This document shows positions 22,364-60,642 of a stretch of 64,000 nt of DNA, in pieces. This DNA is from a virus. The DNA lies in the IMG/VR virus record IMGVR_UViG_3300027969_004220, positions 1-64,000 of that record; one strand, written 5' to 3'. The translations under genes were made by a program, and so were the position numbers. The number at the start of each line of letters is the position of its first letter. Position 1 is the stretch's first letter. The notes under the pieces were generated by a model. The model worked only from the letters and a program-made list of their open reading frames with translations. It ran no database searches and had not been told where the DNA came from.

Positions 22364-22375
22364 TTTTAATATATA
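22364..22375 (+). promoter_or_regulatory. Phage-type promoter motif of tRNA module 1
   Basis: TTTTAATATATA 6 bases before the leader 1 ATG, downstream of the host-type promoter, so the module may have two starts. Confidence 0.45.
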
Positions 22376-22381
22376 ATAACA

Positions 22382-22494
22382 ATGAGAACAAATTCAATAC
22401 ATACAAGCTTTAGTAAGTCGTTCAAGTGGTTTAGCCACAAGTTCGGATGTATGAGTATGTCGTTCTCAAAAGAAGATGTTATTTTAGGATAATG
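22382..22494 (+). CDS. Leader peptide 1 (Phe/Lys/Trp/His/Ser)
   Basis: A 36-codon ORF between promoter and terminator, ahead of tRNA array 1. Residues 9-21 read SFSKSFKWFSHKF: nine of the 13 are Phe, Lys, Trp or His, exactly the amino acids of the tRNAs that follow (Lys, Trp, His, Lys, Phe, His, Phe); the other four are Ser, served by array 2 further on. AGTTCGG (22440-22446), inside the last sensor codons, is the perfect complement of CCGAACT in the terminator 5' arm (22526-22532). This is the arrangement of an attenuation leader: a ribosome stalled on sensor codons would let the antiterminator form. Confidence 0.85.
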
Positions 22495-22521
22495 TCATAA
22501 AAGAGAATAAAACATAAACGT

Positions 22522-22556
22522 AAACCCGAACTAAAAAATTAGTTCGGGTTTTTTAT
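22522..22556 (+). terminator. Attenuator terminator of tRNA module 1
   Basis: AAACCCGAACT (22522-22532) and AGTTCGGGTTT (22541-22551) form a perfect 11-bp stem with an 8-base loop and a T-run. The 5' arm can alternatively pair with AGTTCGG in leader ORF 1. Confidence 0.88.
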
Positions 22557-23100: not shown

Positions 23101-23949
23101 ATGGGTTCAAATAACTGGTCGAGAAATGAGGAAGAATTATTAAAGGAAAATTATGGAAAATTAGGTGCAGAAAAGTGTAGTATTTTATTAGGTAGAACTA
23201 AAAGAGCATGTCAGATACGTGCAAAAAAATTGTTACTAAAATATGTAGATGATAGATATAATAAAATCAATTTATTAGAAATTGTAAAAGATTCTAAAAC
23301 AAAATCTGAATGTTTACGTAGATTAAATTTATCAACCAATGCAGGAAATTTTGATACACTTAACAGATATATTAAAAAATATGAAATAGATATATCACAT
23401 TTTGAATGTGTCACAGATGGATTAAAAATTTATGTTTCGAGTATAACAATCCCAATAAAAGATATATTGATAGAAAACTCTACATATAGTAGTACAAATC
23501 ATTTAAAAAAAAGATTATATAAAGAAGATTTAAAACAAAGAAGATGTGAATTATGTAACCAGGGAGAAGATTGGATGGGTAAAAAAATGAGTCTAATTTT
23601 AGATCATATAAATGGAGTAAATAATGATAATAGATTAGAAAATTTAAGAATTGTTTGTCCTAATTGTAATGCAACATTAGATACACATTGTAGAGGAACT
23701 AGAATAACAAAAGAAATAGAGAATAAAGATCATTGTAAATGTGGTGGTAGTAAATGGAAAACAAGTAAATCTTGTGTAGATTGTAGTAAAAAATTACAAA
23801 GAAAAGTTGAAAGACCTTCATTAGAACAAATTTTAGAAGATATAAAAGAAACAAACTATGTCTTAACCGGTAAAAAATATGGTGTTAGTGATAACACTAT
23901 AAGAAAGTGGATAAGACAATATAATGCGGATTTAGCTGAGACGGTTTAG
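23101..23949 (+). CDS. HNH homing endonuclease inside tRNA array 1
   Basis: A 282-residue protein. Residues 5-45 (NWSRNEEELLKENYGKLGAE) resemble a SANT/Myb-like DNA-binding region. The HNH nuclease core spans about 150-205 (CELCNQGEDWMG, LILDHINGVNNDNRLENLRI, VCPNCNATLD) with zinc-binding cysteines and the catalytic His. A C-terminal helix-turn-helix (VLTGKKYGVSDNTIRKWIRQ) completes it. Its last 24 bases overlap the 5' end of a tRNA-Phe, as expected for an endonuclease that homes into tRNA loci. It has its own phage-type motif. Confidence 0.9.
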   Translation: MGSNNWSRNEEELLKENYGKLGAEKCSILLGRTKRACQIRAKKLLLKYVDDRYNKINLLEIVKDSKTKSECLRRLNLSTNAGNFDTLNRYIKKYEIDISHFECVTDGLKIYVSSITIPIKDILIENSTYSSTNHLKKRLYKEDLKQRRCELCNQGEDWMGKKMSLILDHINGVNNDNRLENLRIVCPNCNATLDTHCRGTRITKEIENKDHCKCGGSKWKTSKSCVDCSKKLQRKVERPSLEQILEDIKETNYVLTGKKYGVSDNTIRKWIRQYNADLAETV

Positions 23950-24000: not shown

Positions 24001-24133
24001 ATAGAAAGTAGCTCAATTGGTAGAGCACGTAATCATACTTAGTCAGTCTTTCTCTAAGAAATTAGTAGCAATGAAATAAGTTACTTCGCTCTGTTAAAGC
24101 CGTGGTTGTGGGTTCGAGTCCCACCTTTCTATC
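24001..24133 (+). tRNA. tRNA-Asn(GUU)-like gene with about 56-base insertion
   Basis: The ends pair (ATAGAAA/TTTCTAT), the D-arm GCTCAATTGGTAGAGC is intact, the T-arm GTGGGTTCGAGTCCCAC is intact, and a loop CTGTTAA with GCT/AGC resembles an Asn anticodon arm. Between D-arm and anticodon arm sit about 56 extra bases closed by GTAA/TTAC with an inner CTTAG/CTAAG. Discriminator C is unusual for Asn. It may be a disrupted gene or carry a removable insert. Confidence 0.55.
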
Positions 24134-24176: not shown

Positions 24177-24254
24177 ATGAAAACAATTATCACAACATCG
24201 TCAAGTTCGTCTAGTCGCTCAAGTAATTTGAGGGAGGTTCTGTTGTGCTCATAA
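24177..24254 (+). CDS. Leader peptide 2 (Ser/Arg)
   Basis: A 25-codon ORF. Residues 6-17 read TTSSSSSSRSSN: a block of eight Ser and one Arg. The tRNAs behind the terminator are one Arg and four Ser. The Arg codon CGC is read by the following tRNA-Arg(ACG). GAGGTTCTGTTG (24234-24245), just after the sensor codons, can pair with CACAGACTTC in the terminator 5' arm (24281-24290), with two bulged T. Confidence 0.87.
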   Translation: MKTIITTSSSSSSRSSNLREVLLCS

Positions 24255-24275
24255 TTGATATAAAAAATTAGTATG

Positions 24276-24308
24276 AAACCCACAGACTTCAAAGTTTGTG
24301 GGTTTTTT
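24276..24308 (+). terminator. Attenuator terminator of tRNA module 2
   Basis: AAACCCACAGACT and AGTTTGTGGGTTT form a 13-bp stem (one G-U pair) with loop TCAA and a T-run, between leader 2 and tRNA-Arg. Confidence 0.88.
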
Positions 24309-38916: not shown

Positions 38917-38934
38917 GAACTATAAAACATATAT

Positions 38935-39005
38935 CGCGTTAAAGTGTAAAGGTTGCATGAGACTCTCATAAGGTCTACGGGGTGGTTCGAATCCACGATA
39001 CGCTA
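38935..39005 (+). tRNA. tRNA-Met(CAU), elongator-like
   Basis: Anticodon stem AGACT/GGTCT with loop CTCATAA and T-arm GTGG TTCGAAT CCAC. The acceptor stem pairs imperfectly. A modified CAU tRNA reading AUA (Ile2) cannot be excluded. It is not preceded by a leader ORF. Confidence 0.75.
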
Positions 39006-39051
39006 CAAAAGAGATAGATAACGATTTAGATACAAGTCTCAAAGAATATAT

Positions 39052-39124
39052 CGCGGGATAGAGCAGTAGGCAGCTCGTGTGGCTCATAACCATAAGGTCG
39101 GAGGTTCGAGTCCTTCTCCCGCTA
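39052..39124 (+). tRNA. Initiator tRNA-fMet(CAU)
   Basis: Acceptor CGCGGGA/TCCCGCT leaves position 1 unpaired with 72 (C-U), like the C1-A72 mismatch of initiator tRNAs. The D-arm GAGCAGTAGGCAGCTC and the anticodon loop CTCATAA also match fMet. Confidence 0.82.
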
Positions 39125-39221: not shown

Positions 39222-39323
39222 ATGACAACAATTACTAACATAACAATAGCTATCGAAGCCATAGGCGGGTATGAAGCGGGGTATACAATACCATCGGTCA
39301 GAAGCGTTATGTGTATAAAGTAA
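39222..39323 (+). CDS. Leader peptide 3 (Ile/Ala/Glu/Gly/Tyr)
   Basis: A 33-codon ORF. Residues 9-21 read IAIEAIGGYEAGY, and all 13 are Ile, Ala, Glu, Gly or Tyr: the amino acids of the recognisable tRNAs behind it (Tyr, Glu, Tyr, Glu, Glu, Ile, Gly, Gly, Ala). Most Ile codons are ATA, the codon read by the tRNA-Ile(UAU) of this array. GTCAGA (39297-39302) is complementary to TCTGAC (39359-39364) in the terminator. Thr codons near the start have no visible tRNA-Thr here. Confidence 0.87.
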   Translation: MTTITNITIAIEAIGGYEAGYTIPSVRSVMCIK

Positions 39324-39350
39324 TGAGTTGAAAAAACATTATTATACAAC

Positions 39351-39388
39351 AAACCCAATCTGACGTAAAAATCAGATTGGGTTTTTTT
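39351..39388 (+). terminator. Attenuator terminator of tRNA module 3
   Basis: AAACCCAATCTGA (39351-39363) and TCAGATTGGGTTT (39372-39384) form a perfect 13-bp stem, with an 8-base loop and a T-run. Confidence 0.9.
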
Positions 39389-40199: not shown

Positions 40200-40223
40200 C
40201 CGCAGACTTTTTTGACTTTTTTA

Positions 40224-40235
40224 TTTTAATATATA
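40224..40235 (+). promoter_or_regulatory. Phage-type promoter motif of the GIY-YIG gene in array 3
   Basis: TTTTAATATATA 18 bases before the ATG at 40254. Flanking GACTTTTTTA and TAAAAAAGTC can form a hairpin. Confidence 0.45.
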
Positions 40236-40253
40236 TAATAAAAAAGTCTGAAA

Positions 40254-40880
40254 ATGTCAAAAAATAAAATAAAGTATCACTTTTTGTATAAAACTACAAA
40301 TTTGATAAATAGTAAGTATTATTATGGAATGCATAGTACCTATAAACTAGATGATGGTTATTTAGGATCTGGTAAAATGTTAAGATACTCAATACGTAAA
40401 TATGGTAAAGAAAATTTTAACATCGAAATTATAGAATTTTTTCCTTCAAGAGAAGATTTAGTAAACGCTGAAATGAATTTGATTACAGAAGAAATGGTAG
40501 TTGATAACAAACTATGTATGAACCTTAAAAAAGGTGGTTTAGGTGGATTTACAAAAGAACAATCTCATAAAGGTGCATTAAGGATGTTAGATATAATATG
40601 GAGTGATAGTGATTTTATAACAAGACACAACGAAAGAAAAAGTAAGCTAATCAAAGAACTATATCTAAGTGGTAAAATAAAAAGATGTGACTGGACTGGT
40701 AGAAAACATAGTAAAGATACTATAGAGAAAATGACTTTATCTAAAAAAGGACAAGGATTAGGAGAATCTAATTCACAATTCGGAACTTGCTGGATAACAA
40801 AAGATGGAGAGAATAAAAAAATAACAAAAGAAAAATTAGAAGACTATTTGATGGATGGTTGGATAAATGGAAGAAAATAA
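40254..40880 (+). CDS. GIY-YIG homing endonuclease inside tRNA array 3
   Basis: A 208-residue protein. The GIY-YIG core has YHFLYKTTNLINSKYYYGMH (8-27), DDGYLGSGKML and a helix with Glu (AEMNLITEEMV). A NUMOD3 motif (WTGRKHSKDTIEKMTLSKKG) gives sequence-specific DNA binding, as in phage seg-type and intron endonucleases. It sits between tRNA-Gly(UCC) and tRNA-Gly(GCC), starting 54 bases after the first and ending 1 base before the second. Confidence 0.9.
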   Translation: MSKNKIKYHFLYKTTNLINSKYYYGMHSTYKLDDGYLGSGKMLRYSIRKYGKENFNIEIIEFFPSREDLVNAEMNLITEEMVVDNKLCMNLKKGGLGGFTKEQSHKGALRMLDIIWSDSDFITRHNERKSKLIKELYLSGKIKRCDWTGRKHSKDTIEKMTLSKKGQGLGESNSQFGTCWITKDGENKKITKEKLEDYLMDGWINGRK

Positions 40881-57626: not shown

Positions 57627-57731
57627 ATGAAAACAACTAATCTAAATATTAACTTAACGCTGAATGTCTTATGTCTAAGACAAAGACCGGGTTTTGCCTT
57701 ATTTAGAGCAACTGATTTTGATGGTGTGTAA
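57627..57731 (+). CDS. Leader peptide 4 (Leu/Arg)
   Basis: A 34-codon ORF. Residues 5-20 read NLNINLTLNVLCLRQR, with five Leu and two Arg. The tRNAs behind the terminator are five Leu and two Arg. Leu codons are CTA, TTA, CTG, TTA and CTA; Arg codons are AGA, read by the tRNA-Arg(UCU) genes. CGGGTTTTG (57688-57696), immediately after the last Arg sensor codon, is the perfect 9-base complement of CAAAACCCG (57759-57767) in the terminator. This is the clearest antiterminator of the five. Confidence 0.9.
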   Translation: MKTTNLNINLTLNVLCLRQRPGFALFRATDFDGV

Positions 57732-57759
57732 TCATTAAATTCAAACTAAATATACAAAC

Positions 57760-57792
57760 AAAACCCGAAATTTAAAAGTTTCGGGTTTTTTT
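57760..57792 (+). terminator. Attenuator terminator of tRNA module 4
   Basis: AAAACCCGAAA and TTTCGGGTTTT form a perfect 11-bp stem with an 8-base loop and a T-run. Confidence 0.9.
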
Positions 57793-58715: not shown

Positions 58716-58748
58716 ATTAGGTAGATTAAAAAACTAATAGTATATTTG
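58716..58748 (+). promoter_or_regulatory. Host-type promoter of tRNA module 5
   Basis: ATTAGGTAG (-33 region) and TATATTTG (58741-58748). Confidence 0.65.
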
Positions 58749-58802: not shown

Positions 58803-58892
58803 ATGAAAACAAATACTGTAAATATTAATGTGATTACGATTACGAATTGTGTGAATAGCACGACTTCGGGTAATGAGATATGTATGGTATAA
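58803..58892 (+). CDS. Leader peptide 5 (Asn/Thr/Val/Ile/Cys)
   Basis: A 29-codon ORF. Residues 3-18 read TNTVNINVITITNCVN: all 16 are Thr, Asn, Val, Ile or Cys. The tRNAs behind the terminator are Asn, Asn, Ile, Val, Val, Ile, Cys, Cys, Thr and Thr, the same five amino acids and no others. TTCGGGT (58865-58871), just after the sensor block, is the perfect complement of ACCCGAA (58924-58930) in the terminator. The peptide otherwise has no feature of a functional protein. Confidence 0.92.
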   Translation: MKTNTVNINVITITNCVNSTTSGNEICMV

Positions 58893-58920
58893 AGTTAAAG
58901 TATATTATAATAAATTCATA

Positions 58921-58951
58921 AAAACCCGAACTCAAAAAGTTTGGGTTTTTT
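58921..58951 (+). terminator. Attenuator terminator of tRNA module 5
   Basis: AAAACCCGAACT and AGTTTGGGTTTT form a 12-bp stem (one G-U pair), with a short A-rich loop and a T-run. Confidence 0.88.
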
Positions 58952-58970
58952 CATGTCAAAAAATAAATAT

Positions 58971-59041
58971 TCTTCTATAGTGAAATGGTATCACGTCTGA
59001 CTGTTAATCAGTTATTCCAGGTTCGAGCCCTGGTGGAAGAG
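58971..59041 (+). tRNA. tRNA-Asn(GUU)
   Basis: Acceptor TCTTCTA/TGGAAGA, anticodon arm with loop CTGTTAA, T-loop TTCGAGC, G73 as usual for Asn. Confidence 0.88.
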
Positions 59042-59047
59042 CAAAAT

Positions 59048-59135
59048 TACTGGGTTGCCATAGCCAGGTCGAATGGTTCGGACTGTTAATCCGATGAGCA
59101 TCGCTCCACCGTGGGTTCGAATCCCACCCCAGTAG
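59048..59135 (+). tRNA. tRNA-Asn(GUU), second copy with long variable arm
   Basis: Acceptor TACTGGG/CCCAGTA, anticodon stem TCGGA/TCCGA with loop CTGTTAA, G73. The variable region is about 16 bases, more like a class II tRNA. Confidence 0.82.
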
Positions 59136-59144
59136 CAAATATAT

Positions 59145-59225
59145 TGGCAAATACCAGCCCAACCTGATAAGTTGGAGAACTGTAGTGGTAAGTTGAAAAC
59201 GTGGGTTCGAATCCCACTTTGCCAA
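59145..59225 (+). tRNA. tRNA-Ile(GAU)-like, no D-arm
   Basis: Acceptor TGGCAAA/TTTGCCA, anticodon arm CCAAC-CTGATAA-GTTGG and T-arm GTGGG TTCGAAT CCCAC are perfect. Only 7 bases lie between acceptor and anticodon stem; a 25-base stretch follows it. ACCA before and TGGT after the anticodon arm could pair. Same architecture as the Arg-like gene at 58075. Confidence 0.58.
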
Positions 59226-59317
59226 CAAAAAAAATAAAATAATAATTATGAAAATGAAAGAGAATTTATTAAATAGTTCGGTTAGTAGTTAAAAAAAGTG
59301 ATAAAAGTGAGTTATAA

Positions 59318-59330
59318 TTTTTTATATATA
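59318..59330 (+). promoter_or_regulatory. Phage-type promoter motif of the HNH gene in array 5
   Basis: TTTTTTATATATA about 20 bases before the ATG at 59350. Confidence 0.4.
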
Positions 59331-59349
59331 CAATAAATAAAAAACTATA

Positions 59350-59886
59350 ATGGAAAAAGATAAAATGATAGAACTAATCGAGTTAGGTTACTCACAAAGG
59401 AATCTTGCGGAAGAACTAAAAACATCACAATCTAATGTTAAATATTGGTTAAAAAAATTTGAAATAAGTACAAAATATAAAAAAAATAATATAGATAAAC
59501 ATATAATTGATGGTGGTAAAAATTGTCCTAAATGTAATGAGTTAAAAGATGTGGATGACTTTTATAAAAGAAGTAGTATAAATAGAAACGGAACCGCGGG
59601 TTATTGTAAAAAATGTAGTAATATTTATCATGGTGCTAGATTAAAGAAAGTTAAATTAAAAATGATTTTATATAAAGGTGGTAAATGTTGTGATTGTGAA
59701 CTAAACCATGAAAATACACACTATTGTGTTTTTGATTTTCATCACTTAGATCCAAATACTAAAGACCCAAACTTTAATAAAATTAAATATCAAAAATGGG
59801 AAAAAATTAAAGAAGAAATTGATAAATGTGTATTATTGTGTGCGAATTGTCACCGTTTAAGACACTCTGTTATCAGTGGATGGTAA
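59350..59886 (+). CDS. HNH homing endonuclease inside tRNA array 5
   Basis: 178 residues. An N-terminal helix-turn-helix (LIELGYSQRNLAEELKTSQS) is followed by zinc-binding CPKC and CKKC pairs (NCPKCNELKDVDDFYKRSS). The HNH core is FDFHHLDPNTKDPNF with CVLLCANCHRLRHS at the end, containing the catalytic His residues and the last Cys pair. This layout is common among phage homing HNH proteins. It separates tRNA-Ile from tRNA-Val in array 5. Confidence 0.9.
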   Translation: MEKDKMIELIELGYSQRNLAEELKTSQSNVKYWLKKFEISTKYKKNNIDKHIIDGGKNCPKCNELKDVDDFYKRSSINRNGTAGYCKKCSNIYHGARLKKVKLKMILYKGGKCCDCELNHENTHYCVFDFHHLDPNTKDPNFNKIKYQKWEKIKEEIDKCVLLCANCHRLRHSVISGW

Positions 59887-59898
59887 ATAAATAAAAAT

Positions 59899-59981
59899 AG
59901 GTCTATGGTGTAATGGCAACATCCTTCTTTTACATGGAAGAGACGTGAAGTATAATCTCGGTTCGAGTCCGAGTAGACCTA
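59899..59981 (+). tRNA. tRNA-Val(UAC)
   Basis: Acceptor AGGTCTA/TAGACCT, anticodon stem CTTCT/GGAAG with loop TTTACAT, T-loop TTCGAGT, A73; extended variable region. Confidence 0.82.
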
Positions 59982-59987
59982 CATAAT

Positions 59988-60063
59988 GGTTCCTTAGCTC
60001 AGTTGGTTCAGTAGCGTCTGTTTTACACGCAGAAGGTCATAGGTTCGAATCCTATAGGAATCA
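59988..60063 (+). tRNA. tRNA-Val(UAC), second copy
   Basis: Acceptor GGTTCCT/AGGAATC, anticodon stem TCTGT/GCAGA with loop TTTACAC, T-loop TTCGAAT, A73. Confidence 0.88.
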
Positions 60064-60069
60064 CAATAT

Positions 60070-60143
60070 TGGTAGTTAGCTCAACTGGTTAGAGCACTTC
60101 GCTGATACCGAAGAGGTTATGGGTTCGACTCCCTTACTACCAA
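60070..60143 (+). tRNA. tRNA-Ile(GAU)
   Basis: Acceptor TGGTAGT/ACTACCA, anticodon stem CTTCG/CGAAG with loop CTGATAC, A73. Confidence 0.9.
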
Positions 60144-60151
60144 CAAAAAAT

Positions 60152-60239
60152 GGCATAGTGTCTGAGTGGTCGAAAGATGCGGTCTGCAAAACCGTAATGA
60201 TTAAGTTCATCATCGTAGGTTCAAATCCTACCTATGCTT
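60152..60239 (+). tRNA. tRNA-Cys(GCA) with long variable arm
   Basis: Acceptor GGCATAG/CTATGCT, anticodon stem GCGGT/ACCGT with loop CTGCAAA, U73 as required for Cys. The variable arm is class II-like (ATGATTAAGTTCATCAT). Confidence 0.82.
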
Positions 60240-60245
60240 CTAAAT

Positions 60246-60325
60246 GGTTGGTCACTGTAAATGGCTTCACAGTGGGACGGTACGTGGAATTTATTCCTAA
60301 GTGGGTTCGAGACCCACATCAACCT
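60246..60325 (+). ncRNA. tRNA-like gene without a readable anticodon arm
   Basis: Acceptor GGTTGGT/ATCAACC, D-arm-like ACTGT/ACAGT with GG in the loop, and T-arm GTGGG TTCGAGA CCCAC are present, with T73. The anticodon region (GACGGTACGTGGAATTTATT) has no 7-base loop with T33. Probably a decayed Cys or Gly tRNA. Confidence 0.5.
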
Positions 60326-60332
60326 CAATAAT

Positions 60333-60406
60333 GGCGCGGTGGCCGAGTGGCACGTAGGCGGTGGATTGCAAACTCACACACACTGGTTCGAATCCAGTCC
60401 GCGCCT
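60333..60406 (+). tRNA. tRNA-Cys(GCA), second copy
   Basis: Acceptor GGCGCGG/CCGCGCC, anticodon loop TTGCAAA with one mismatch in the stem, T-loop TTCGAAT, U73. Confidence 0.82.
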
Positions 60407-60473
60407 CGAGACGAGACTGTTACTAATTCATAGGGGCCCATACGATGTAAGTGTCTGCGTAGAATTAGAAAAT
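60407..60473 (+). other. Spacer between tRNA-Cys and tRNA-Thr
   Basis: Sixty-seven bases with an inverted repeat CTAATTC/GAATTAG but no T-loop or ORF. Could be a remnant or a processing structure. Confidence 0.35.
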
Positions 60474-60546
60474 GCCGATATAGCTCAATAGGTAGAGTGC
60501 CAACTTGGTAGGTTGGAGGTTAAGGGTTCGATTCCCTTTATCGGAT
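60474..60546 (+). tRNA. tRNA-Thr(GGU)
   Basis: Acceptor CCGATA/TATCGG (first pair uncertain), anticodon stem CCAAC/GTTGG with loop TTGGTAG, T-loop TTCGATT. Confidence 0.83.
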
Positions 60547-60554
60547 CAAATAAT

Positions 60555-60635
60555 GCTGGTGTTGCGTAGTGGCCGATCGCACCTACCTTGTAAGTAGGAA
60601 TTCCAACGTCGCAGGTTCGAATCCTGTCACTAGCT
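60555..60635 (+). tRNA. tRNA-Thr(UGU)
   Basis: Acceptor GCTGGTG/CACTAGC, anticodon stem CCTAC/GTAGG with loop CTTGTAA, T-loop TTCGAAT, longer variable region. Confidence 0.83.
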
Positions 60636-60642
60636 CGACAAA

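Follow-up and report, generated by a model that had tools for sequence, protein, structure and literature searches.

The question raised by this locus is why a short open reading frame of a megaphage, placed ahead of a tRNA array, should be written so largely in the amino acids that those tRNAs carry. The DNA analyzed (the window, 64,000 nucleotides) is part of a 105.6-kb record, and the answer that we consider very probable is that its tRNA arrays are under ribosome-mediated transcription attenuation, with translated leaders that would sense a shortage of isoacceptors. This proposal draws on computation of the units themselves, of the match between leader codons and arrays, of its specificity for frame and isoacceptor, of complementarity and covariation at the terminators, and of recurrence in unrelated phages.

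The module 5 leader and its array

An initial annotation had claimed that 16 successive residues of the 29-codon leader are all Asn, Thr, Val, Ile or Cys, and that these five are the amino acids of the array behind it. Both observations were borne out, as the run occupies residues 3-18 and ARAGORN reads the array (58971-60636) as exactly Asn, Asn, Ile, Val, Val, Ile, Cys, Cys, Thr, Thr. The features of this unit, module 5, are the following:

58741-58748, + strand: TATATTTG, a putative promoter element that fits TAnnTTTG (sequence read directly, with general knowledge)
58803-58892, + strand: leader open reading frame, translated as MKTNTVNINVITITNCVNSTTSGNEICMV, whose orthologues share the core NINVITITNCVN
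58809-58856, + strand: control codons 3-18 (Thr/Asn/Val/Ile/Cys), which the anticodons encoded in the array can read
58862-58877, + strand: antiterminator 5' strand GACUUCGGGUAAUGAG within the leader frame, predicted to pair with 58915-58933 (fold of the stalled state)
58883-58909, + strand: hairpin enclosed by the antiterminator, with the leader stop codon in its 5' strand (fold)
58924-58946, + strand: intrinsic terminator stem ACCCGAACT/AGTTTGGGT, then TTTTTT (fold, -14.8 kcal/mol)
58971-59042, + strand: tRNA-Asn (GTT), ARAGORN
59048-59136, + strand: tRNA-Asn (GTT), ARAGORN
59133-59226, + strand: tRNA-Ile (GAT), ARAGORN (Rfam bounds 59145-59225)
59350-59886, + strand: Cys-rich 178-aa open reading frame inside the array
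59899-59982, + strand: tRNA-Val (TAC), ARAGORN
59988-60064, + strand: tRNA-Val (TAC), ARAGORN
60070-60144, + strand: tRNA-Ile (GAT), ARAGORN
60152-60240, + strand: tRNA-Cys (GCA), ARAGORN
60246-60325, + strand: tRNA-like element that has U73 and lacks a normal anticodon arm, with a homologue in L096
60333-60407, + strand: tRNA-Cys (GCA), ARAGORN
60474-60547, + strand: tRNA-Thr (GGT), ARAGORN
60555-60636, + strand: tRNA-Thr (TGT), ARAGORN

TAnnTTTG is the -7 element of Bacteroidota promoters and also occurs upstream of leaders 1, 3, 4 and 6; for module 5, we infer a transcript start ~50 nt upstream of the leader. The 178-aa frame looks like an insertion of the homing-endonuclease type, and a Pfam search with it gave no match. 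The element at 60246 had been read as having U73 and as a possible decayed Cys tRNA. The U73 is present, but decay from a Cys tRNA is unsupported, since the element fits the tRNA-Sec model weakly (21.6 bits against a cut-off of 47) and its homologue preserves acceptor and T stems through compensatory changes, with almost nothing between a D-like hairpin and the T arm. It looks like a conserved tRNA-like element that lacks a normal anticodon arm.

The Asn/Thr/Val/Ile/Cys 16-mer is unique among the 75,679 six-frame 16-mers of the record, where the second-longest such run in any frame is 11, and its naive probability is 2.7e-9 per site. The leader shares 22 of its 28 residues with the amino acids of its own array, and 21 of those 22 codons are readable by the array anticodons. 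The assertion that this is the strongest match of all was inflated, because most leaders begin with ~8 residues rich in Asn, Thr, Val and Ile irrespective of their array, so that this array also draws up to 16 residues from foreign leaders; its own leader nevertheless fits best, and with the first 8 residues omitted the fit is 16, versus at most 9 for other leaders.

A large class of leader-terminator-array units

Module 5 is not exceptional but one member of a large class of units. The megaphage record contains six units of leader frame, intrinsic terminator and tRNA array, and 71 such units, each with a short and putatively translated frame upstream of the tRNA genes, are present across 15 related genomes or contigs. 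An intrinsic terminator stands between leader and first gene, although its presence was a criterion of the scan, terminators having first been spotted by eye; in 24 modules measured, the leader stop lies 17-47 nt upstream of it. Besides modules 5 and 6, the record has these units:

22382-22551, + strand: module 1, leader (His/Phe/Lys/Trp/Ser) 22382-22492 and terminator 22522-22551, before a Lys/Trp/His/Phe array
24177-24306, + strand: module 2, leader (Ser/Arg) 24177-24254 and terminator 24275-24306, before an Arg/Ser array
39222-39384, + strand: module 3, leader (Ile/Ala/Glu/Gly/Tyr) 39222-39323 and terminator 39351-39384, before a Tyr/Glu/Ile(TAT)/Gly/Ala array
57627-57788, + strand: module 4, leader (Leu/Arg) 57627-57731 and terminator 57761-57788, before an Arg/Leu array

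Module 2 is placed in tandem behind module 1 because no TAnnTTTG promoter of its own was seen. In relatives, modules 4 and 5 correspond to a single array with a single merged leader, and modules 3 and 6 each correspond to two arrays with two split leaders. Leader residues outside the set of the array are generic Asn/Thr near the start, or are Ser in leader 1 and Gln in Pro/Asp leaders, for which the matching tRNAs lie in the next tandem unit; an upstream tandem unit might in this way gate the next one too. Two scan matches were judged false, a long frame before the Arg/Met tRNAs of LR756502 (L049) and a short frame in Atu_ph07 (L109), and both were retained in the statistics.

The suggestion first made for module 5, of a leader peptide that samples the tRNAs encoded in the array that follows, has strong support: leaders and arrays match across the 15 genomes or contigs, the signal is specific to the reading frame, there is an antiterminator to match, and unrelated phages show the same design. 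The true pairing of leaders with arrays is the unique best among all permutations in 14 of 15 genomes (1/720 in this record and 1/5040 in each of LR745206, G012 and G013), and ranks 2/40320 in the sole genome with a false module. Leaders are enriched in codons for the tRNAs they precede: all 20 amino acids are commoner in leaders whose array has a cognate tRNA, by 1.4 to 12.9 fold, pooled counts that overstate independence because leaders are homologous within a family. The match has z=12.2 in frame and 0.9 and -1.8 out of frame; leader orthologues diverge too fast or too little for conservation by codon position to tell translation.

The same comparisons bear on what is sensed. The choice between ATA and ATY for Ile (Fisher p=4e-6) and between AGR and CGN for Arg (p=3e-7) tracks the array anticodons, p-values that are optimistic because the leaders are homologous. 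The sensing idea of the initial annotation is thus upheld in its leader-array match and revised in its unit, as codon data favor tRNA isoacceptors and point to these, rather than amino acids, as what the leaders would sense. It is quite unlikely, in our estimate, that the leaders instead sense amino-acid starvation like classical attenuators, with tRNA depletion not being the relevant signal. Starvation would trigger them too, because what any attenuator reads is charged tRNA, and several amino acids are mixed in each leader; yet the match extends beyond amino acids to isoacceptors, and extra tRNA gives no relief from amino-acid starvation, so that a feedback loop acting on tRNA genes would be useful only for controlling the supply of tRNA.

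Beyond the clade, an unbiased scan recovered this arrangement in Bacillus phage G, CcrColossus, SCTP-2 (four units), Atu_ph07 and Lak (Lak-A1), and did not find it in T5, KVP40 or some other tRNA-rich phages. Only 5 of 2,000,000 permutations paired the outside-clade leaders and arrays equally well, and most of these units have a strong antiterminator. Asn, Thr, Ile and Val are common in AT-rich coding sequence and at leader N-termini, which is what an artefact of chance or base composition in AT-rich phage DNA would exploit. We regard that explanation as practically negligible: the permutation tests, in 15 genomes and in outside-clade phages, refute it, and the unique 16-mer, the frame and isoacceptor results and the presence of the design in phages that infect other hosts, among them CcrColossus with its GC-rich terminator and leader, also speak against it.

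Antiterminator folding and the proposed switch

The last ~10 leader codons are complementary to the 5' arm of the terminator that follows, and this antiterminator, which carries compensatory changes, and the terminator exclude each other. In permutations, leaders match their own terminator more closely than foreign ones (1/720, 3/5040, 8/5040 and 1/24). Consensus folding recovered the antiterminator helix in 6 of 7 families, that of family 1 being absent with a shorter alignment window and present with a longer one, and compensatory changes occur at 2-5 helix pairs in five of the six helix families, with none of 100 column shuffles equally good. For module 5, 2 of 300 shuffles paired equally well, and the pairing is retained in orthologues.

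These orthologues occur in four related contigs, and the peptide core NINVITITNCVN is invariant across all five, as might be expected if the short frames encoded functional micropeptides and the terminators, which can serve as mere unit separators, only insulated adjacent transcription units. We hold this to be very improbable: the peptide tracks array content rather than a conserved fold, poly-Gln and poly-Ser leaders are of low complexity, and each leader is suited to the terminator arm that follows it.

Folding the complete transcript at equilibrium proved uninformative, since the terminator prevails in almost all states, and switching must accordingly depend on kinetics; such dominance at equilibrium is usual for known attenuators. 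This test was replaced by folding of the unfinished transcript, with shuffled controls. The terminator arm is sequestered more than by shuffled leaders in 67 of 70 modules, and sequestration in the unfinished transcript is 0.73 with a stalled ribosome versus 0.10 with a ribosome at the stop codon, a calculation that omits RNA already passed by the ribosome. Several modules have their antiterminator core 5-10 codons upstream of the stop, where it could pair again once the ribosome has moved on. A protector (1:2) hairpin is not evident in most modules, and untranslated RNA still favors the antiterminator; competing upstream pairing is seen in a few modules only (5 and 6 here, and A1), and in family 2 the control codons are covered by a conserved hairpin.

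From these features we infer leader translation, the step from stalling to read-through, the sign of the response and its physiological signal. Transcription would begin at the promoter upstream of the leader, whose middle is composed of codons that the tRNAs encoded downstream can read. If the cognate tRNAs are plentiful and charged, the ribosome would traverse the whole leader and open or cover its last ~10 codons, so that the terminator hairpin could fold and transcription would stop before the tRNA genes; in module 5, a terminating ribosome would also open the nested hairpin, as its 5' strand spans the leader stop codon. If any isoacceptor is scarce, the ribosome would stall in the control codons, the last ~10 codons would be free to pair with the 5' arm of the terminator, and RNA polymerase could enter the array and supply the missing tRNAs. 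The net logic would be negative feedback, with tRNA supply on demand. Coupling of ribosome and polymerase is putative in these hosts, notably in Bacillus for phage G.

Because the terminator arm is already sequestered in most untranslated modules (mean 0.62), it is also conceivable that the device is a default-on sensor of overall translation, in which only the passage of a ribosome through the leader keeps the antiterminator from forming, codon identity is a refinement, and any slowing of translation (antibiotics, host shut-off) would switch the arrays on. Induction of an Anabaena plasmid tRNA operon by translation inhibitors is in keeping with this (PMC10272220). We consider it unlikely, though with some weight, as the precise split of 20 amino acids among the leaders and the isoacceptor match would then be superfluous.

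Significance and relation to known systems

On the attenuation model, the phage seems to make replacement tRNAs only upon a cellular shortage, likely as a way of replacing tRNAs lost in infection, such as those cut by the anticodon nucleases with which hosts defend themselves. With slightly less than even confidence, we suggest that giant phages of several bacterial phyla carry codon-reading alarms for tRNA loss, in which leaders would poll isoacceptors and release tRNAs only on their destruction, anticodon-nuclease defence would be both detected and countered by one RNA switch, and the arrays of one phage would cover all 20 amino acids. If arrays do switch codon by codon on shortage, phage tRNAs would serve as a repair kit that is induced on need, not as a standing supplement for rare codons, and a firing leader would report which tRNAs a defence system attacks. 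The device is testable now, since its outside-clade carriers include phages with named host strains (Bacillus phage G, Caulobacter phage CcrColossus, Salicola phage SCTP-2 and Agrobacterium phage Atu_ph07).

Two reports concern phage tRNAs that counteract tRNA-cleaving host defences, which suggests a reason for on-demand replacement; by their abstracts, they treat the tRNAs themselves, not array sensing or regulation (PMC10264068, PMC11555353). Attenuation and leaders go unmentioned in a survey of huge phages (Al-Shayeb 2020, PMC7162821), and no earlier description of tRNA-array attenuation was found in the open-access literature or in Rfam. The Anabaena trn operon (26 plasmid tRNA genes) is likewise a large, silent accessory array induced by translation stress, but it is repressed by a DNA-binding protein, TrcR, at its promoter, with no leader or attenuation reported (PMC10272220).

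T-box riboswitches also control transcription by tRNA charging and supply through a terminator and antiterminator, but they bind uncharged tRNA directly, whereas the phage sensor would be a translated frame. Neither a T-box nor a known leader family was matched in the window, where cmscan against Rfam gave tRNA matches only and the Trp, His, Leu, Thr and Phe leader families had no match at gathering thresholds.

The attenuators of amino-acid operons in enteric bacteria (trp, his, leu, thr, ilv, pheA) and of the tRNA synthetase operon pheST have the same short leader frame with regulatory codons, the same intrinsic terminator and mutually exclusive antiterminator, and the same expected rise in read-through on stalling. 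They regulate enzymes, whereas the phage-borne units would regulate tRNA genes, with several isoacceptors per leader, an antiterminator strand inside the leader frame after the control codons, and a 1:2 protector hairpin that is not obvious in most modules. If the proposal is correct, attenuation, a textbook device of amino-acid operons, extends to tRNA genes and to phages.

Six leader-terminator-tRNA units and their codon match

The record that holds the window (105,621 bases, IMG/VR) is related to the uncultured megaphage genomes LR745206 (634,780 bases), LR756502 (642,428 bases) and LR756501 (735,411 bases). In module 5, a leader ORF and an intrinsic terminator precede an array of Asn, Asn, Ile, Val, Val, Ile, Cys, Cys, Thr and Thr tRNAs, a layout repeated at four other places in the window and once beyond it.

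58803-58892, module 5 leader ORF, 29 codons, encoding MKTNTVNINVITITNCVNSTTSGNEICMV
58924-58946, module 5 intrinsic terminator, 3' of the leader ORF

Other units of the record (leader start; amino acids of leader; tRNAs of array); in each, the match is visible by eye
Module 1, 22382; His/Phe/Lys/Trp; Lys, Trp, His, Phe
Module 2, 24177; Ser/Arg; Arg, Ser
Module 3, 39222; Ile/Ala/Glu/Gly/Tyr; Tyr, Glu, Ile, Gly, Ala
Module 4, 57627; Leu/Arg; Arg, Leu
Module 6, record position 67529; Met/Pro/Gln/Asp; Pro, Asp, Gln, Met

Identities of tRNAs are ARAGORN calls, and some tRNAs were missed by this program; the six arrays together cover all 20 amino acids when a Trp tRNA from a low-stringency run and the module 6 Met tRNA, called by eye, are counted.

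The initial annotation was correct in counting sixteen consecutive module 5 leader residues drawn from Asn, Thr, Val, Ile and Cys, a run that is unique among 75,679 16-mers (six-frame translation of the record), the next longest from these five letters being 11. Part of its length reflects a shared style, because an N/T/I/V-rich stretch opens most leaders; with the first eight residues skipped, this leader is still the best for its array (16 versus at most 9).

Of the 720 possible pairings of leaders and arrays in the record, the real one alone reaches the top score, 78 matched residues (permutation mean 33.7). Among 71 units from 15 genomes or contigs, the real pairing is the unique best permutation in 14 of the 15; that of LR756502 ranks 2 of 40,320, a count that includes a false module. 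Because leaders within a family are homologous, these within-genome permutations bear the weight, rather than pooled counts. For 20 of 20 amino acids there is enrichment in leaders whose array has the cognate tRNA, weakest for Val (1.4-fold) and strongest for Gln (12.9-fold). The in-frame match is 779 residues versus 376 expected (z = 12.2; the other two reading frames give 0.9 and -1.8).

Repartitioned arrays and isoacceptor codons

Modules 4 and 5 correspond to one array (Asn, Arg, Leu, Val, Ile, Thr) with one leader, for example MTTMNLNMTMNLTLNVVNITLCNIRP, in LR745206, LR756502 and several IMG/VR contigs. In the same genomes module 3 is split into a Tyr/Glu array, with leader ASYESYYEE, and an Ile/Gly/Ala array, with leader ISIAVIGNGAGA, and module 6 into a Pro/Asp array and a Gln-only array of three tRNAs behind MTTTQQIQQQQINQTD. 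The partition differs again in the 735-kb LR756501, where five Leu tRNAs lie behind a Leu-rich leader and a leader with APAVAFRRGTGTGTG precedes an Arg, Thr, Val, Ala, Gly, Pro array. An Ile, Cys, Asp, Asn, Tyr, His array of this genome was missed by the scan, and an ORF containing KYNDYCIND is its likely leader.

Apparent mismatches often make sense in a tandem arrangement. For example, module 2 lies directly behind module 1 without a promoter of the same type, and the Ser in leader 1 belongs to the module 2 array; in LR756501, Ser tRNAs are within the same array and the leader also contains Ser.

Codon choice also follows the array anticodons. Leaders before tRNA-Ile(TAT) arrays contain 32 ATA and 14 ATY codons, and those before tRNA-Ile(GAT) arrays 6 and 29; leaders before arrays with CGN-reading Arg anticodons contain 24 CGN and 7 AGR codons, and those before AGR-reading arrays 24 AGR and 3 CGN (Fisher p = 4e-6 for Ile and 3e-7 for Arg, both optimistic because leaders are homologous). 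The CGN and ATY preferences are seen again in unrelated phages, and 21 of the 22 matching codons of module 5 are readable by an array anticodon. This codon choice therefore points to tRNA isoacceptors, and not only amino acids, as the quantity that may be sensed.

Two Met(CAT) tRNAs without a leader of their own lie just 5' of leader 3 (38933-39124). A Met tRNA occurs at the equivalent place in both LR745206 and LR756502, and the lack of regulation may be deliberate. LR756501 also contains two tRNA-like genes with a CTA anticodon (2086 and 2164 of L056, a sequence from this genome), called Pyl by ARAGORN, which are possible amber suppressors.

Antiterminator pairing and a proposed mechanism

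The last ~10 leader codons are complementary to the terminator 5' arm. In module 5, UUCGGGU (58865-58871) lies opposite ACCCGAA (58924-58930); pairing between 58873-58877 and 58915-58919 lengthens the helix, as does a nested hairpin across the stop codon. In module 4, CGGGUUUUG lies opposite CAAAACCCG. A leader's own terminator fits it better than do other terminators of the same phage (1/720, 3/5040, 8/5040 and 1/24). In six of seven leader families the helix was recovered by consensus folding, and in five of these it contains two to five compensatory pairs; 100 column shuffles gave no equally good result. In the seventh family the helix appears with a longer alignment.

When folded as the transcript just before synthesis of the terminator's 3' arm, real leaders sequester the 5' arm with a probability of 0.69 versus 0.43 for shuffled ones; for 67 of 70 leaders the value is above that of the leader's own shuffles. 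The predicted mean probability that the leader holds the arm is 0.73 with a ribosome stalled in the control codons (those read by tRNAs of the array) and 0.62 in naked RNA. It falls to 0.10 once a ribosome is at the stop codon, a state whose model omits the RNA behind the ribosome. When the transcript is complete, the terminator almost always forms the more stable fold; timing must therefore decide the switch.

The layout, codon match and antiterminator, each established by computation, may best be read as ribosome-mediated transcription attenuation of tRNA arrays. We infer that leaders are translated, and that fluent translation would end transcription ahead of the tRNA genes; a ribosome stalled at codons of a scarce tRNA would let transcription proceed into the array. 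This model assumes ribosome-polymerase coupling in these hosts. A plausible trigger is the destruction of tRNA by anticodon-nuclease defences, as two papers report that phage tRNAs help to evade such defences (PMC10264068, PMC11555353).

Other array elements, distribution and known relatives

Several other elements lie within or near the arrays.

23101-23949, 40254-40880 and 59350-59886, ORFs inserted in arrays
24002-24132, tRNA-like gene of 131 nt with a long insert (Rfam score 44.8), inside which low-stringency ARAGORN calls Asn (GTT)
60246-60325, tRNA-like element that has an acceptor stem, a T stem and a long D-like hairpin but lacks a normal anticodon arm
60408-60474 and record 68082-68132 (4082-4132 of L034, a sequence from this record), repeated spacer lying once among the module 5 tRNAs and once among those of module 6 (81% identity over 57 nt), carrying GTTACTAATTCATAGGG...GTCTGCGTAGAATTAGAA
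58785-58800, 22365-22380 and 40220-40240, occurrences of the TTTAATATATA motif

The inserted ORFs, which give weak HNH and GIY-YIG (SegE-like) matches under Pfam cut-offs or, in one case, no match, are likely homing endonucleases. The 60246-60325 element has a homologue on the minus strand of L096, a related phage sequence (about 800-874); both sit inside tRNA arrays, and their acceptor and T stems are kept through compensatory changes. The repeated spacer is possibly a degenerate tRNA or small structured RNA. The TTTAATATATA motif recurs shortly 5' of the start codons of all leaders and array ORFs, including the homing-endonuclease-like ones, and could be a phage promoter or translation signal.

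We also ran the same scan, which ignores what leaders are composed of, on tRNA-rich phages from other groups.

Units in phages outside the clade (leader; array)
Bacillus phage G; CSWFEFDTDFTDVFYCEYTFYSLYTFLD; Cys, Asp, Phe, Tyr, Glu, Thr, Leu, Ser, Trp
Caulobacter phage CcrColossus; YRNNVRQIRVRQFN; Tyr, Phe, Val, Ile, Gln, Asn, Arg
Salicola phage SCTP-2, four units; e.g. QYQLQQLPLVLYPY; Leu, Pro, Tyr, Gln
Agrobacterium phage Atu_ph07; MQPTTEIIAIERNVFVRAEAAMFWYPI; Ala, Arg, Phe, Ile, Pro, Tyr, Trp, Met, Glu, Val, Gln
Prevotella phage Lak-A1; two units

Only 5 of 2,000,000 permutations equalled this pairing (strict tRNA calls, one false unit included), and in 7 of 10 units no more than 6 of 200 shuffled leaders gave an antiterminator as good. 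The scan found no unit in Vibrio phage KVP40, T5, XacN1, RAS14, RaK2, Serratia phage BF, Myrna, crAss-like cr111_1 or Bacteroides phage DAC16. Among giant phages, the device is widespread, though not universal.

In open-access literature and Rfam, we found no earlier description of such a switch acting on phage tRNA genes with mixed-codon leaders that partition the genetic code. The type of switch is already known from amino-acid operons. In purpose, the device comes closest to the Anabaena trn operon (PMC10272220), which is controlled by a repressor.
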